Source: Methyloversatilis sp. (GTDB taxonomy: Bacteria; Pseudomonadota; Gammaproteobacteria; Burkholderiales; Rhodocyclaceae). From it: a stretch of DNA of 64,000 bases. The notes beneath the pieces were generated by a model. The model was not told where the DNA came from and did not search any database. It saw nothing but the letters and a program-made list of their open reading frames with translations. The translations under genes and the position numbers were made by a program. This document shows, one piece after another, positions 1,253 through 15,316 of the stretch. Numbering within the stretch: position 1 is the stretch's first letter; each line of letters starts with the position of its first letter. Location: positions 1-64,000 of the forward strand of contig JAGNYW010000005.1 in NCBI GenBank assembly GCA_017984755.1, read 5' to 3'.

Positions 1253-2002
1253 ATGAGCTCCGCTGCCTTGCGCGCCGTCTCCGGGGAGACCTCCTCCCCC
1301 GTGAAAGCGCCGTTCGAAACCTCCTGCCACAAGTGCAATGTGCGCGAAATGTGCCTGCCTTGCGGCCTCACCGGCGAGGGTCTCTGCCGCATCGATGGGC
1401 TGGTCAACCGGCGGCGTCGTGTGTACCGAGGCGAAACGCTTTACCGCGCCGGTGATCCGTTCAGTTCGCTCCATGTATTGCGCAGCGGCTTCTGCAAGTC
1501 GTATCTGCCGGTCGAAGGCGGACGCGAACAGGTGTCGGGCTTTCACATGACGGGCGACATCATGGGCATGGACGCAATCTGGTCGGGCACCCACGCGAGC
1601 AGTGCGGTGGCGCTCGAGGACGGCGTGGTGTGCGTGCTGCCCTATGACCGGCTCGAAAGGCTGAGTCACGACATGCACGACCTGCAACGCCACCTGCATC
1701 AGCTGATGAGCCGCGAAATCGTGCGCGAGCACAGCGTGATGGTGCTGCTCGGCAGCATGCGCGCCGAAGAGCGACTGGCGGCCTTTCTGCTCAACCTGTC
1801 CGAGCGCCTGACCGAGCGCGGCTACTCCGCTTCGGAGTTCTATCTGCGCATGACGCGCGAGGACATCGGCAGCTTCCTCGGCATGAAACTGGAAACGGTG
1901 AGCCGCATCTTTTCCAAGTTCCATGCGCTCGGCCTCATCAGCGTGCAGCAGAGGCACGTGCGGATACTCGATGTGCCCGGTCTCCGGCAGGCGCTGGAGT
2001 AA
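1253..2002 (+). CDS. fnr: FNR-type Crp-family transcriptional regulator
   Basis: A 249-residue protein matching FNR/ANR proteins over the full length. Cysteines at about 25, 28 and 34 (SCHKCNVREMC) plus Cys127 in the VVCVLP segment correspond to the four ligands of the oxygen-labile [4Fe-4S] cluster of E. coli FNR (Cys20, 23, 29, 122). An extra Cys37 is present. The cyclic-nucleotide-like fold covers about 50-150 and the Crp-type helix-turn-helix about 185-230 (TREDIGSFLGMKLETVSRIFSKF). The E..SR recognition-helix pattern predicts a TTGAT-N4-ATCAA type site. Start ATG 1253 follows AAAAGGA. In this family oxygen destroys the cluster and dimer, so it activates genes under low oxygen. It heads the island that follows and is the best candidate for its regulator (inference). 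Confidence 0.93.
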   Translation: MSSAALRAVSGETSSPVKAPFETSCHKCNVREMCLPCGLTGEGLCRIDGLVNRRRRVYRGETLYRAGDPFSSLHVLRSGFCKSYLPVEGGREQVSGFHMTGDIMGMDAIWSGTHASSAVALEDGVVCVLPYDRLERLSHDMHDLQRHLHQLMSREIVREHSVMVLLGSMRAEERLAAFLLNLSERLTERGYSASEFYLRMTREDIGSFLGMKLETVSRIFSKFHALGLISVQQRHVRILDVPGLRQALE

Positions 2003-2089
2003 GCGTCCGGAGAACGCGTCATTTCCCTGCGACCCCGACCGATTCATCCCGGCTGCCGCTGAGCGCGGGCCGGACCGGAGGACACACCC

Positions 2090-3715
2090 ATGCCCGCAAA
2101 ACAGCTGCTGTTTCATCACGCAGCGCGCGAGAAGGTCATCGAAGGCGTCAACACGCTGGCCAATGCGGTCAAGGTGACGCTGGGCCCGCGTGGATTGAAC
2201 GTGATCGTCGAGCGCAGCTTCGGACCACCCCTGGTCGCGAACTCGGGTGTGGTCGTCGCGCGCGAGGTCGAACTGGAAGACCACTTCGAAAACATGGGTG
2301 CCCAGCTGGTCAGGGAGGTGGCGGCCAGGACGTCGGACGTGGCCGGCGACGGCACCACGACGGCCACGGTGCTGGCGCAGGCCATCGTGCTCGAAGGCAT
2401 GAAGTACGTCGCTTCGGGCATGAATCCGATGGACCTGAAGCGCGGCATCGATCAGGCGGTGGACGCCATCGTCGAGGCGCTGAAGCGGCTGTCCAGGCCT
2501 TGCGCAACGAGCCGGGAGATCGCGCAGGTCGGCGCCATCTCGGCCAGTTCCGATCGCGCCGTGGGCGAAATCATCGCCCAGGCCATGGAGAAGGTCGGCA
2601 AGGAGGGCGTTATCACGGTCGAGGACGGCAAGGGCCTGCAGAACGAGCTCGAAGTGGTCGAAGGCATGCAGTTCGATCACGGCTACCTGTCGCCTTACTT
2701 CATCACCCGTGCCGAGCGCGAGCTCGTCACGCTGGACGACCCCTGGATACTGATTCACGACAAGCGCATCGGCAGCGCCGCAGTCATGCTGCCGCTGCTC
2801 GACCAGATCGCCCGCGCCGGCCGGCCGCTGCTGGTACTGGCGGAAGACGTGGAAGGCGAGGCGCTCGCGACGCTGGTGGTCAATCACCTGCGCGGAATCG
2901 TGAAGGCGGTTGCGGTGAAGTCGCCCGGTTTCGGCGACCGGCGCCGCGCCATGCTCGAAGACATCGCGATCCTGACCGGCGGCAAGGTGATCGCCGACGA
3001 ACTGGGCCGCACGCTGGAGAAGGCGACGCTCGACGATCTCGGTCAGGCTCGGCGCATCGACGTGGCGAAGGACAGCACCACGCTGATCGGCGGTGCCGGC
3101 GACCCGGCCGCCATCCATGGCCGCATCGAACAGATACGCGGCCAGATCGATGCCGCCACCAGCGACTACGACCGCGAAAAGCTGCAGGAACGCGCGGCGC
3201 GCCTGGGCGGCGGCGTGGCGGTGATCAAGGTTGGCGCCGCGACCGAATCGGGCATGAAGGAAAGGAAGAGCCGCATCGAGGATGCCGTGCATGCCACGCG
3301 CGCCGCGGTGGAGGAGGGCGTGCTGCCCGGCGGCGGCATGGCGCTGCTGCGTGCGCGGGAGGCGCTGGGGCCGCTGCACGGCGAGAACCACGACCAGGAC
3401 TGCGGCATCACCATCGTGCTGCGGGCGCTCGAGGCGCCGCTGCGCCAGATCGTGACCAACGCCGGGGGTGAGGCGTCGATCGTGCTGCACAAGGTGCTCG
3501 AAGGAAAGGGGGGCTATGGCTACAACGCGGCCACAGGCCAGTACGGCGACCTGATCGAGATGGGGGTGCTCGATCCGGCAAAGGTGACGCGCTGCGCGCT
3601 GCTCAATGCGACATCCATCGCCAGCCTGATCCTGACCACCGACGTGATGATCGCGCTGAAGCCTGCGCCGAACGCACCGCGGATGGCAGGCATGGGCGAA
3701 GACGCACTGATGTAG
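2090..3715 (+). CDS. groL: Orphan GroEL-like chaperonin with altered ATP site
   Basis: A 541-residue 60-kDa chaperonin, colinear with E. coli GroEL. Present: TLGPRG at 30-35, GDGTTT with Asp87, the [10 protein letters not shown] segment with the second catalytic Asp, and apical residues GYLSPYF. Unusual: in the segment normally reading TKDG (50-53), residues are ANSG, so the ATP-contacting Lys51 is Asn and the hydrolysis-linked Asp52 is Ser (codons AAC and TCG at 2240-2245). The C-terminus ends [10 protein letters not shown] and has no GGM-repeat tail. No groES lies in the window, so this is a paralogue, not the housekeeping groESL. Start ATG 2090 follows GGAGG. It sits 87 bases after fnr and 30 before the acyl-CoA synthetase, suggesting a role for the enzymes encoded downstream (inference). 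Confidence 0.95.
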
Positions 3716-3745
3716 TCCGCACACACGACTGCGGAGACTATCTTC

Positions 3746-14660: not shown

Positions 14661-14752
14661 TGAACACCTTGCCTTTCGGTCGCCTGCTGCCGGTTCGTCC
14701 GGATCGGGGAGGAATGGCCGGGTGAGGCAGGATTTCCGCAGGGAGGATTCGA

Positions 14753-15268
14753 ATGCTGGATTCACTGAAGGAAGTCGGCCGCAACGTCGGTCGGGAAATC
14801 AATCGCGCGTGGGAAAGTGTGGCCGAGGGCTGGCACGAGTTGCTCAGCCGAAGCGGCAACGCGTTGACGCACTTTTCGCGCAGATCGGCCGCCGAGGGCG
14901 AAGACGGAAGCGCAGCGGGCGGCCTGCCGGCGTCGTCTCCGCGCTGGGGCCTGCTGGCCGGCGAGGTCGAAGAGACGGACAAGGAACTGGTGGTGCGCGT
15001 CGAGGTGCCTGGTCTCGAAAAGGAGGATTGCCGCATCAGCATCGAGGACAACGTGCTCTACCTCAGCGGCGAAAAGCGTTTCGAGCGCGAGTCCGGCGAC
15101 AGTACCTATCACGTCACCGAGCGCGCATACGGGATGTTCCAGCGCTCGATCCCGTTGCCCTGCAGGGTCGATCCCGATCAGGCCGACGCGCGCTACCGGA
15201 ACGGCGTGCTGACCGTGCGTCTGCGAAAGATGAGCAGCGGGAGGCCACGGTGCATACCGGTTTCCTGA
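14753..15268 (+). CDS. Small heat shock protein Hsp20 (second copy)
   Basis: A 171-residue Hsp20 clearly different from the first copy. A long N-terminal arm of about 70 residues (helical LKEVGRNVGREINRAWESVAEGWHEL, then a Ser/Gly/Ala linker) precedes the crystallin domain (GEVEETDKELVVRVEVPGLEKEDC, YLSGEKRFE, ERAYGMFQRSIPLP, ADARYRNGVLTVRLRK). The tail CIPVS carries an I-x-V anchor. Start ATG 14753 has AGGGAGG upstream. The two copies could form mixed oligomers or act in different conditions (inference). Confidence 0.92.
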   Translation: MLDSLKEVGRNVGREINRAWESVAEGWHELLSRSGNALTHFSRRSAAEGEDGSAAGGLPASSPRWGLLAGEVEETDKELVVRVEVPGLEKEDCRISIEDNVLYLSGEKRFERESGDSTYHVTERAYGMFQRSIPLPCRVDPDQADARYRNGVLTVRLRKMSSGRPRCIPVS

Positions 15269-15285
15269 AGACCGGTCCCTTTGCA

Positions 15286-15316
15286 CGCCGGGCAAAGCTC
15301 CTGCCTGGCGTTACGT
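15286..15316 (+). terminator. Hairpin ending the stress island
   Basis: CGCCGGGCA, a 7-base loop, then TGCCTGGCG (9 pairs with one G-T), followed by TTACGTGATTTT. It lies 18 bases after the second hsp20 stop and before the convergent lplT gene, so it may serve the plus-strand transcript. Confidence 0.5.

Follow-up and report, generated by a model that had tools for sequence, protein, structure and literature searches.

What brings together, in one stretch of a Methyloversatilis sp. genome, the genes for an FNR-type regulator, a GroEL, enzymes of the pyruvate dehydrogenase type and two Hsp20 proteins? The genes form an island in the first 64,000 nucleotides of contig JAGNYW010000005.1 (the whole stretch analyzed, called the window hereafter; it starts at the first base of the contig, C31 in our numbering). 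The initial annotation had viewed the island as an independently assembled module for survival at low oxygen, resembling the DosR dormancy set of Mycobacterium tuberculosis. The data reported here point to a locus for survival at low oxygen, organized around a mobile operon of five genes (acs, E1-alpha, E1-beta, E2 and ACP, the core hereafter), a reading to which we assign a probability of about 0.6. The core encodes an AMP-forming acetate-CoA ligase (Acs), the two subunits of a pyruvate dehydrogenase E1, a dihydrolipoyl acyltransferase (E2) and an acyl carrier protein (ACP).

Conservation and spread of the five-gene core

Relatives of the E1-alpha protein were searched in 150 genomes of the order, and sort into two groups. 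Those of 16 genomes, Methyloversatilis included, are at least 63% identical, the rest at most 53%. At the 15 other loci of the first group acs is found directly before E1-alpha, and E1-beta and E2 follow, in all cases. ACP is present in 14, the remaining locus being a 4-kb contig which ends within E2. In 398 genomes of the phylum, 14 (the own genome included) score at least 470 bits, and the next best 368.

A scan of 84,980 species genomes provided the best 80 loci, and more exist. These loci, those of the order and seven annotated plasmids, minus the duplicates L062 and L099, make a set of 100 non-redundant loci; L049 and L050 are not operon loci. The set includes acs in 96 loci, E1-beta in 99, E2 in 92, ACP in 85, and all five genes in 82. 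acs precedes E1-alpha in 96 of the 100 loci, and the other four begin too late. Missing genes are mostly due to contig ends; where the contig has sufficient room, only two loci lack a gene match: L132, without E2 and ACP, and L057, in which ACP is not matched but annotated. Eleven further loci all feature the genes from acs to E2, and nine of them an ACP match.

Key residues are conserved as well. Trp366 of Acs, which we take as a marker of an acetate-sized pocket, is found in all 93 aligned rows, Lys569 in 92 (one gap). In E2, the catalytic His357 is present in 84 of 84 rows, Asp361 in 81, the lipoyl lysine in 79 (five gaps), and the phosphopantetheine serine of ACP is conserved in 85 of 85. 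Gene order and alignments show that acs-E1-alpha-E1-beta-E2-ACP is one conserved unit, with catalytic residues intact. The substrate of its E1/E2 enzymes is presumably pyruvate.

The operon has been identified in Betaproteobacteria, Pseudomonas, Rhodococcus, Mycobacterium, Solirubrobacterales, Deinococcota, Binatota, Myxococcota, Acidobacteriota, Gemmatimonadota, Bacteroidota and Nitrospira. Many sources are metagenome bins, and single odd phyla should therefore not be leaned on. Annotated plasmids carrying the operon come from Cupriavidus, Burkholderia savannae, Rhodococcus, Streptomyces, Leisingera, Sinorhizobium fredii, Methylocystis, Tropicibacter and Sulfitobacter. In three alphaproteobacterial plasmids (L054, L199, L200) a single annotated gene of ~2 kb covers both E1-alpha and E1-beta.

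Horizontal transfer of the core

In a rapid tree built from concatenated E1-alpha and E1-beta sequences (96 rows, SH-aLRT support), mycobacteria and rhodococci are nested in a clade of 69 rows, most of them proteobacterial (support 99), apart from Streptomyces and Solirubrobacterales. A single actinobacterial clade is rejected by the approximately unbiased (AU) test (p 0.00053); the group tested is a natural taxon, but was chosen with the tree already seen. The least number of changes on the tree is 2. The branching pattern shows the core to be one operon horizontally shared between phyla, and for this reason the independent assembly assumed at first does not apply to the core.

FNR boxes upstream of the core

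Exact TTGA-N6-TCAA sites located at most 300 nt upstream of acs were counted in 89 of the 100 loci, those lacking acs, or having 300 nt or less upstream of the acs match, being excluded. Boxes were found at 27 loci (28 sites), and no site was obtained with ten control patterns, made by four other spacings and six scrambled half-sites. All reside in Pseudomonadota (27/64); none was found in Actinomycetota (0/13) or in other phyla (0/12). Because the relaxed form of the box had been picked after the first hits were seen, 11 fresh Pseudomonadota loci were analyzed. Five of them carry boxes (7 sites), nine control patterns gave 0 sites, and nine control regions 1 site in total. Non-actinobacterial loci contain altogether 103 box sites in 1.47 Mb, and control regions totalling 400 kb contain 3. 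Exact boxes also stand immediately in front of genes encoding GroEL (L034, L063, L068), Hsp20 (L066, L070), phosphoribosyl pyrophosphate (PRPP) synthetase (PRS; L066), phosphoribosyltransferase (PRT; L051, L091), a universal stress protein (USP; L126) and phosphoenolpyruvate synthase (PpsA; L054), and between GroEL and Hsp20 in L179. Some of the remaining sites are intragenic, or near nothing recognised. By the position of these sites, the operon is shown to be tied to FNR boxes in many Pseudomonadota.

The core in mycobacterial DosR-type islands

The DosR regulon includes Hsp20, USP, PRT-domain, nitroreductase-like, PfkB, ribosome-hibernation and PNPOx families. The loci L118, L122 and L127 come from Mycobacterium europaeum, M. 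parascrofulaceum and Mycobacterium sp. 4858, respectively, non-tuberculous species which are close relatives. They share the order kinase, response regulator, USP, PRT, a protein which we take to be of the Acg type, acs to ACP, PNPOx, USP, HPF; in L118 and L122 a second Acg-type gene is called after ACP. The response regulator of L118 matches DevR (3c3w) with an E of 3.6e-114, and the kinase of L121 the GAF structures of DevS (1.8e-45 to 1.3e-43); kinases of the other three loci, cut at the locus edge, have been named by clustering with the L121 kinase. Palindromes resembling what we take as the DosR motif mark the region upstream of acs, GGGTCCTTGGTCCC in L118, L122 and L127, and GGGACGGAGGTCCC in L121. 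Allowing at most one mismatch, the palindrome is present in 4 of the 13 actinobacterial loci, vs 0 sites with other spacings, and 0, 0, 1, 0 and 0 sites with scrambled halves. With two mismatches, the sites are 13, vs 2, 7, 4 and 2. Since three of the four palindrome loci are close kin, the four correspond to about two independent cases.

Gene order shows that the five-gene core lies inside a DosR-type island in three related non-tuberculous mycobacteria, and the DosR comparison is therefore more than analogy. The likeness proposed at first stands to this extent, but neither a response regulator nor a GAF kinase was identified among the island genes of the window in Pfam and NCBIfam scans. Of the families characteristic of DosR, the scanned window genes include Hsp20 and PRT, and no USP or PfkB. 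The window PRT is 38-40% identical to the PRT domain of core-bearing mycobacterial loci. The window nitroreductase, initially likened to Acg, is not clearly Acg-like: it has one domain, and aligns only locally and marginally with an Acg-type protein (E 0.001 over 31 residues).

Genes flanking the core

Neighbours of the core were counted in 80 loci (≥12 kb) and 20 control regions. In pooled counts, made after removing own-locus matches and matches above 95% identity, 35 of 80 loci have one or more of the seven accessory families of the window close to the core, vs 1 of 20 controls, and 49 of 80 have one or more of 19 broader dormancy families, vs 2 of 20; these counts may overstate the association, because queries derive from operon loci and controls from few proteobacterial genomes. 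Pooling was adopted because single-family enrichment is mostly not significant with 20 controls. PRT genes are near the core in 18/80 loci vs 0/20 controls (p 0.02, uncorrected), double USP genes in 15/80 vs 0/20 (p 0.04, uncorrected), Hsp20 in 15/80 vs 1/20 (p 0.18), relatives of the alpha/beta hydrolase in 10/80 vs 0/20. PpsA and PRS flank the core in 8/80 and 6/80 loci, respectively.

Two neighbourhoods deserve description. In the Cupriavidus oxalaticus megaplasmid (L198 1-24969), relatives of PncB, PRT, USP and PpsA, the operon, Hsp20, a BON protein, a DosS-like kinase and PfkB are found in one stretch without annotation. A gene of ~340-375 aa (cluster 12) lies beside the operon in 10 loci, as in L066 (14099-15178). 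The L066 copy has no Pfam match at 1e-5; on plasmids the gene is annotated as 'AAA family ATPase', and FNR boxes are found upstream of it in L066, L068 and L070.

Organization of the Methyloversatilis island

Island proteins have been sorted by Pfam and NCBIfam profile searches (Table 1); gene annotation covers the window up to ~18 kb.

Table 1. Features of the Methyloversatilis island, listed by position in the window.
Feature	Position	Strand	Match or remark
fnr paralogue, Fe-S type	1253..2002	+	NF008365, 232 bits vs cut-off 228; 249 aa
groEL paralogue without groES	2090..3715	+	TIGR02348
acs, AMP-forming acetate-CoA ligase (core gene 1)	3746..5536	+	NF003313, 913 bits vs cut-off 729
Pyruvate dehydrogenase E1-alpha (core gene 2)	5533..6567	+	TIGR03182 (PDH, pyruvate dehydrogenase, E1-alpha type y), 430 vs cut-off 394
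Pyruvate dehydrogenase E1-beta (core gene 3)	6564..7547	+	PF02779/PF02780
Dihydrolipoyl acyltransferase E2 (core gene 4)	7544..8719	+	lipoyl, E3-binding and catalytic 2-oxoacid_dh domains
Acyl carrier protein ACP (core gene 5)	8701..8964	+	PF00550
Nitroreductase, single domain	8993..9580	+	PF00881
Alpha/beta hydrolase	9601..10275	+	Pfam matches sub-threshold
PRPP synthetase (PRS)	10289..11311	-	TIGR01251, above cut-off
Weak FNR-box-like site TTGATTTTCGACAA	11373..11386	.	divergent PRS/PRT gap
Phosphoribosyltransferase (PRT)	11472..12164	+	PF00156
PEP-CTERM protein	12298..13485	+	TIGR02595, 18.9 bits vs cut-off 16; Pfam model below own cut-off
Possible PAS-domain protein	13522..13920	+	PF00989, E 0.001, below cut-off
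Hsp20 (a)	14165..14605	+	PF00011; alternative start 14147
Hsp20 (b)	14753..15268	+	PF00011

The initial gene list is borne out for FNR, GroEL, Acs, E1/E2, ACP, nitroreductase, PRS, PRT, PEP-CTERM and the two Hsp20 proteins. The PAS and hydrolase assignments are weaker, both having sub-threshold Pfam matches; for the hydrolase, a gene 49% identical is annotated as alpha/beta hydrolase on a S. fredii plasmid. The FNR protein features a CxxCxxxxxC motif near the N terminus and a LETVSR recognition helix, both read from the sequence, and we take these residues to correspond to those of known FNR.

Genes from fnr to the hydrolase share one strand, and overlap or are separated by gaps of 87 nt at most; the five core genes overlap mutually. 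As PRS is in opposite orientation, the island is not one transcript. acs starts 30 nt after groEL, too close to have a separate promoter, so transcription of the core probably begins upstream of groEL or fnr. No sigma-70-like promoters were found in window positions 1-17000, and a sigma-54 pattern scan of positions 1-16000 gave no match.

The genome (G000; 3.27 Mb in 96 contigs) encodes a second FNR (C23:19944), 52% identical to the island FNR, and another GroEL, 69% identical to the island one; both island copies are therefore extra. groES is found only upstream of the other groEL, and a GroES motif search of the window found none, in line with the description of the island GroEL as an orphan. 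At the other fnr, an exact TTGAYN4RTCAA site (L159, G000:C23:19895-19908) ends 2 nt before the likely ATG, a position as if FNR blocked its own gene.

Two additional features lie upstream of the island. Two near-identical direct repeats of ~70 bases, noticed by eye, are set side by side at the contig start (50-190). A small ORF (open reading frame) with a Gly/Pro-rich tail, located upstream of fnr (423-806), has no family match, a sub-threshold match only.

A possible function, and explanations which compete with it

When oxygen falls, FNR (or DosR) would switch the operon on. The dedicated E1/E2 enzymes, with the general E3 of the cell, would convert pyruvate into acetyl-CoA apart from the housekeeping complex, and Acs would link acetate and acetyl-CoA. 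ACP may either take acyl groups, or provide octanoyl groups for E2 lipoylation. Acetyl-CoA could exit as acetate via Pta-AckA, giving ATP; GroEL and Hsp20 would hold proteins, PRS and PRT handle nucleotides. In a Sulfitobacter sp. SK012 plasmid (L200 1-8567) the operon resides beside genes for ATP synthase, FabI, a PTA-type enzyme and acetate kinase, with FNR-type boxes upstream of this block. The neighbourhood may hint at acetate formation with ATP; it is a hint only, because relatives of FabI, PTA and AckA are near the core in 1 of 110 loci, and the view of these genes as regular core neighbours has been rejected.

A wider interpretation is that the core is a mobile, regulator-independent anoxia module, which plugs into the switch of the host, FNR in proteobacteria, DosSR in mycobacteria. 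E1/E2, ACP and Acs would make an unnamed route in which a dedicated ACP receives pyruvate carbon in the form of acetyl or acyl groups, with NADH drained into acyl chains, and Acs or AckA giving ATP. We regard this as unlikely.

Several results weigh against a low-oxygen survival locus, and concern the boxes, the neighbourhood and the acetate link in turn. No exact FNR box was found in the 64 kb by strict palindrome, relaxed palindrome or weight matrix. The genome hosts 37 exact TTGA-N6-TCAA sites (reversed control 14), none of which is on the contig of the window, and 37 of the 64 Pseudomonadota loci similarly have no exact box upstream of acs. The best site among the intergenic gaps of the island, TTGATTTTCGACAA, shows one mismatch to TTGA-N6-TCAA and two to TTGATN4ATCAA. 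Its matrix score of 13.3 is below that of the training sites (from 16.9) and within the range of simple region shuffles, the maxima of which average 10.8 and reach 17.9. Scores in the intergenic gaps preceding fnr, groEL and acs are 3.5, -8.9 and -9.3, respectively. Lacking an exact box, oxygen control of the window copy rests on the encoded FNR and on the relatives. FNR control thus has in its favor an Fe-S type FNR encoded in the island and the boxes at acs in relatives, but not a box in the window. The absence would be expected of a general stress or heat-shock island, in which chaperones matter, the metabolic operon is a passenger and the signal is not oxygen, and genes for Hsp20, GroEL, FtsH and Lon-like proteins do occur near the core in some relatives. 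Boxes are found, however, upstream of acs itself (27/64 and 5/11 Pseudomonadota loci), and also where no chaperone gene was found nearby (L181, L186, L188), and a stress island of this type seems improbable.

For the low-oxygen locus, the neighbourhood is a second point of weakness. Taken one at a time, families are weakly co-located with the core: PRT and double USP genes alone pass the 0.05 level, uncorrected. Of 31 genomes read by hand, four have an Hsp20 gene at most ~12 kb from the core (G016, G153, G156 and G160; contig identity was inferred from coordinates in the last three), and in G152, G166 and G168 the distance is ~26-28 kb. The other loci feature at most four of the seven accessory families, and the full gene set is found nowhere else. 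Conservation in relatives, proposed as a check of the initial annotation, thus holds for families, more frequent near the core than in controls, but not for the whole set. Could the island be a chance collection in one genome, in which only the five-gene operon is meaningful? The limit of four families fits this idea, as does the lack of matches to the PEP-CTERM protein and the PAS ORF in the loci of relatives (E up to 1e-4 and 1e-6 in two scans). Against it, genes for FNR, GroEL, hydrolase, PRS, PRT and Hsp20 are found repeatedly around the operon of other lineages, and in the nearest row of the tree (L058, Rugosibacter sp.) Hsp20 and GroEL genes are also found upstream of acs. A mere chance assembly is quite unlikely.

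The acetate link of the proposed low-oxygen role is the third point. Pta and AckA relatives are near the core only at the Sulfitobacter locus, and acetate kinase, present in 20 of 25 operon genomes and 15 of 25 genomes without the operon, hardly differs between the two sets. In the acidobacterium A. capsulatum an acs gene, which one being unstated, falls with falling oxygen (PMC11636273). The idea that acetate kinase is a missing function replaced by Acs has been rejected, as the kinase is found in most operon genomes. Acs might also work in reverse, turning acetyl-CoA, AMP and pyrophosphate (PPi) into acetate and ATP, with PRS, PRT and PpsA feeding AMP and PPi. The reverse reaction is reported for Acs1 of Syntrophus (PMC4992975). 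acs is the first gene in all 96 loci which reach it, and PpsA or PRS are nearby in some loci, as counted above. Yet acetate kinase is encoded in the window's genome, as in 19 of the 24 other operon genomes, and the direction of the reaction cannot be read from sequence. Given the frequency of the kinase, reverse Acs is possible but not needed, and we hold it very unlikely.

Comparison with known systems

Low-oxygen stress islands, and their likeness to DosR, are already known as a kind. As described in the passages available of PMC6127331, the lxa (low-oxygen-activated) locus of Burkholderia cenocepacia (BCAM0275-BCAM0323) consists of 50 genes raised at low oxygen, among them metabolic genes and those for a small heat-shock protein and six universal stress proteins; the locus has already been compared with DosR in that paper. 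B. cenocepacia H111 is reported to be without lxa (PMC9104464, PMC3759415), and to survive anoxia via Anr (PMC9104464). Titles and abstract openings of the open-licence literature gave nothing on the five-gene operon, its boxes, or its presence in DosR-type islands.

The E1-alpha, E1-beta and E2 proteins of the operon have the same domains and active-site residues as PDH of type y (the E1-beta residue is outside this check), but make a separate group by score, and their genes are led by acs and closed by ACP. The pairing of a TTGA-N6-TCAA box with a small heat-shock protein gene is known from FNR/ANR/FnrN-controlled stress genes: the Rhizobium leguminosarum Hsp20 gene RLV_1399 has such a box upstream, and FnrN-dependent microaerobic induction (PMC11784457). 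It is a single gene, and the available passages of the same source do not describe it together with the five-gene operon. The island resembles lxa in that small heat-shock protein and metabolic genes are joined in one block, and differs from it as no E1/E2/Acs/ACP operon is named in the passages of PMC6127331 mentioned above.

Low-oxygen survival loci have so far mostly been compared by likeness, as done for lxa and DosR in that source. With respect to the DosR (DevR) regulon, the window differs in having FNR, a nitroreductase not clearly Acg-like and, among the genes identified in its first 18 kb, neither DosS/DosR nor USP. In contrast, families of the regulon surround the core itself in L118, L122 and L127. 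An operon found both under proteobacterial FNR boxes and in mycobacterial DosR-type islands is a shared part, the role of which in anoxic survival is testable. It also suggests that some mycobacterial dormancy islands owe part of their content to exchange with environmental proteobacteria.

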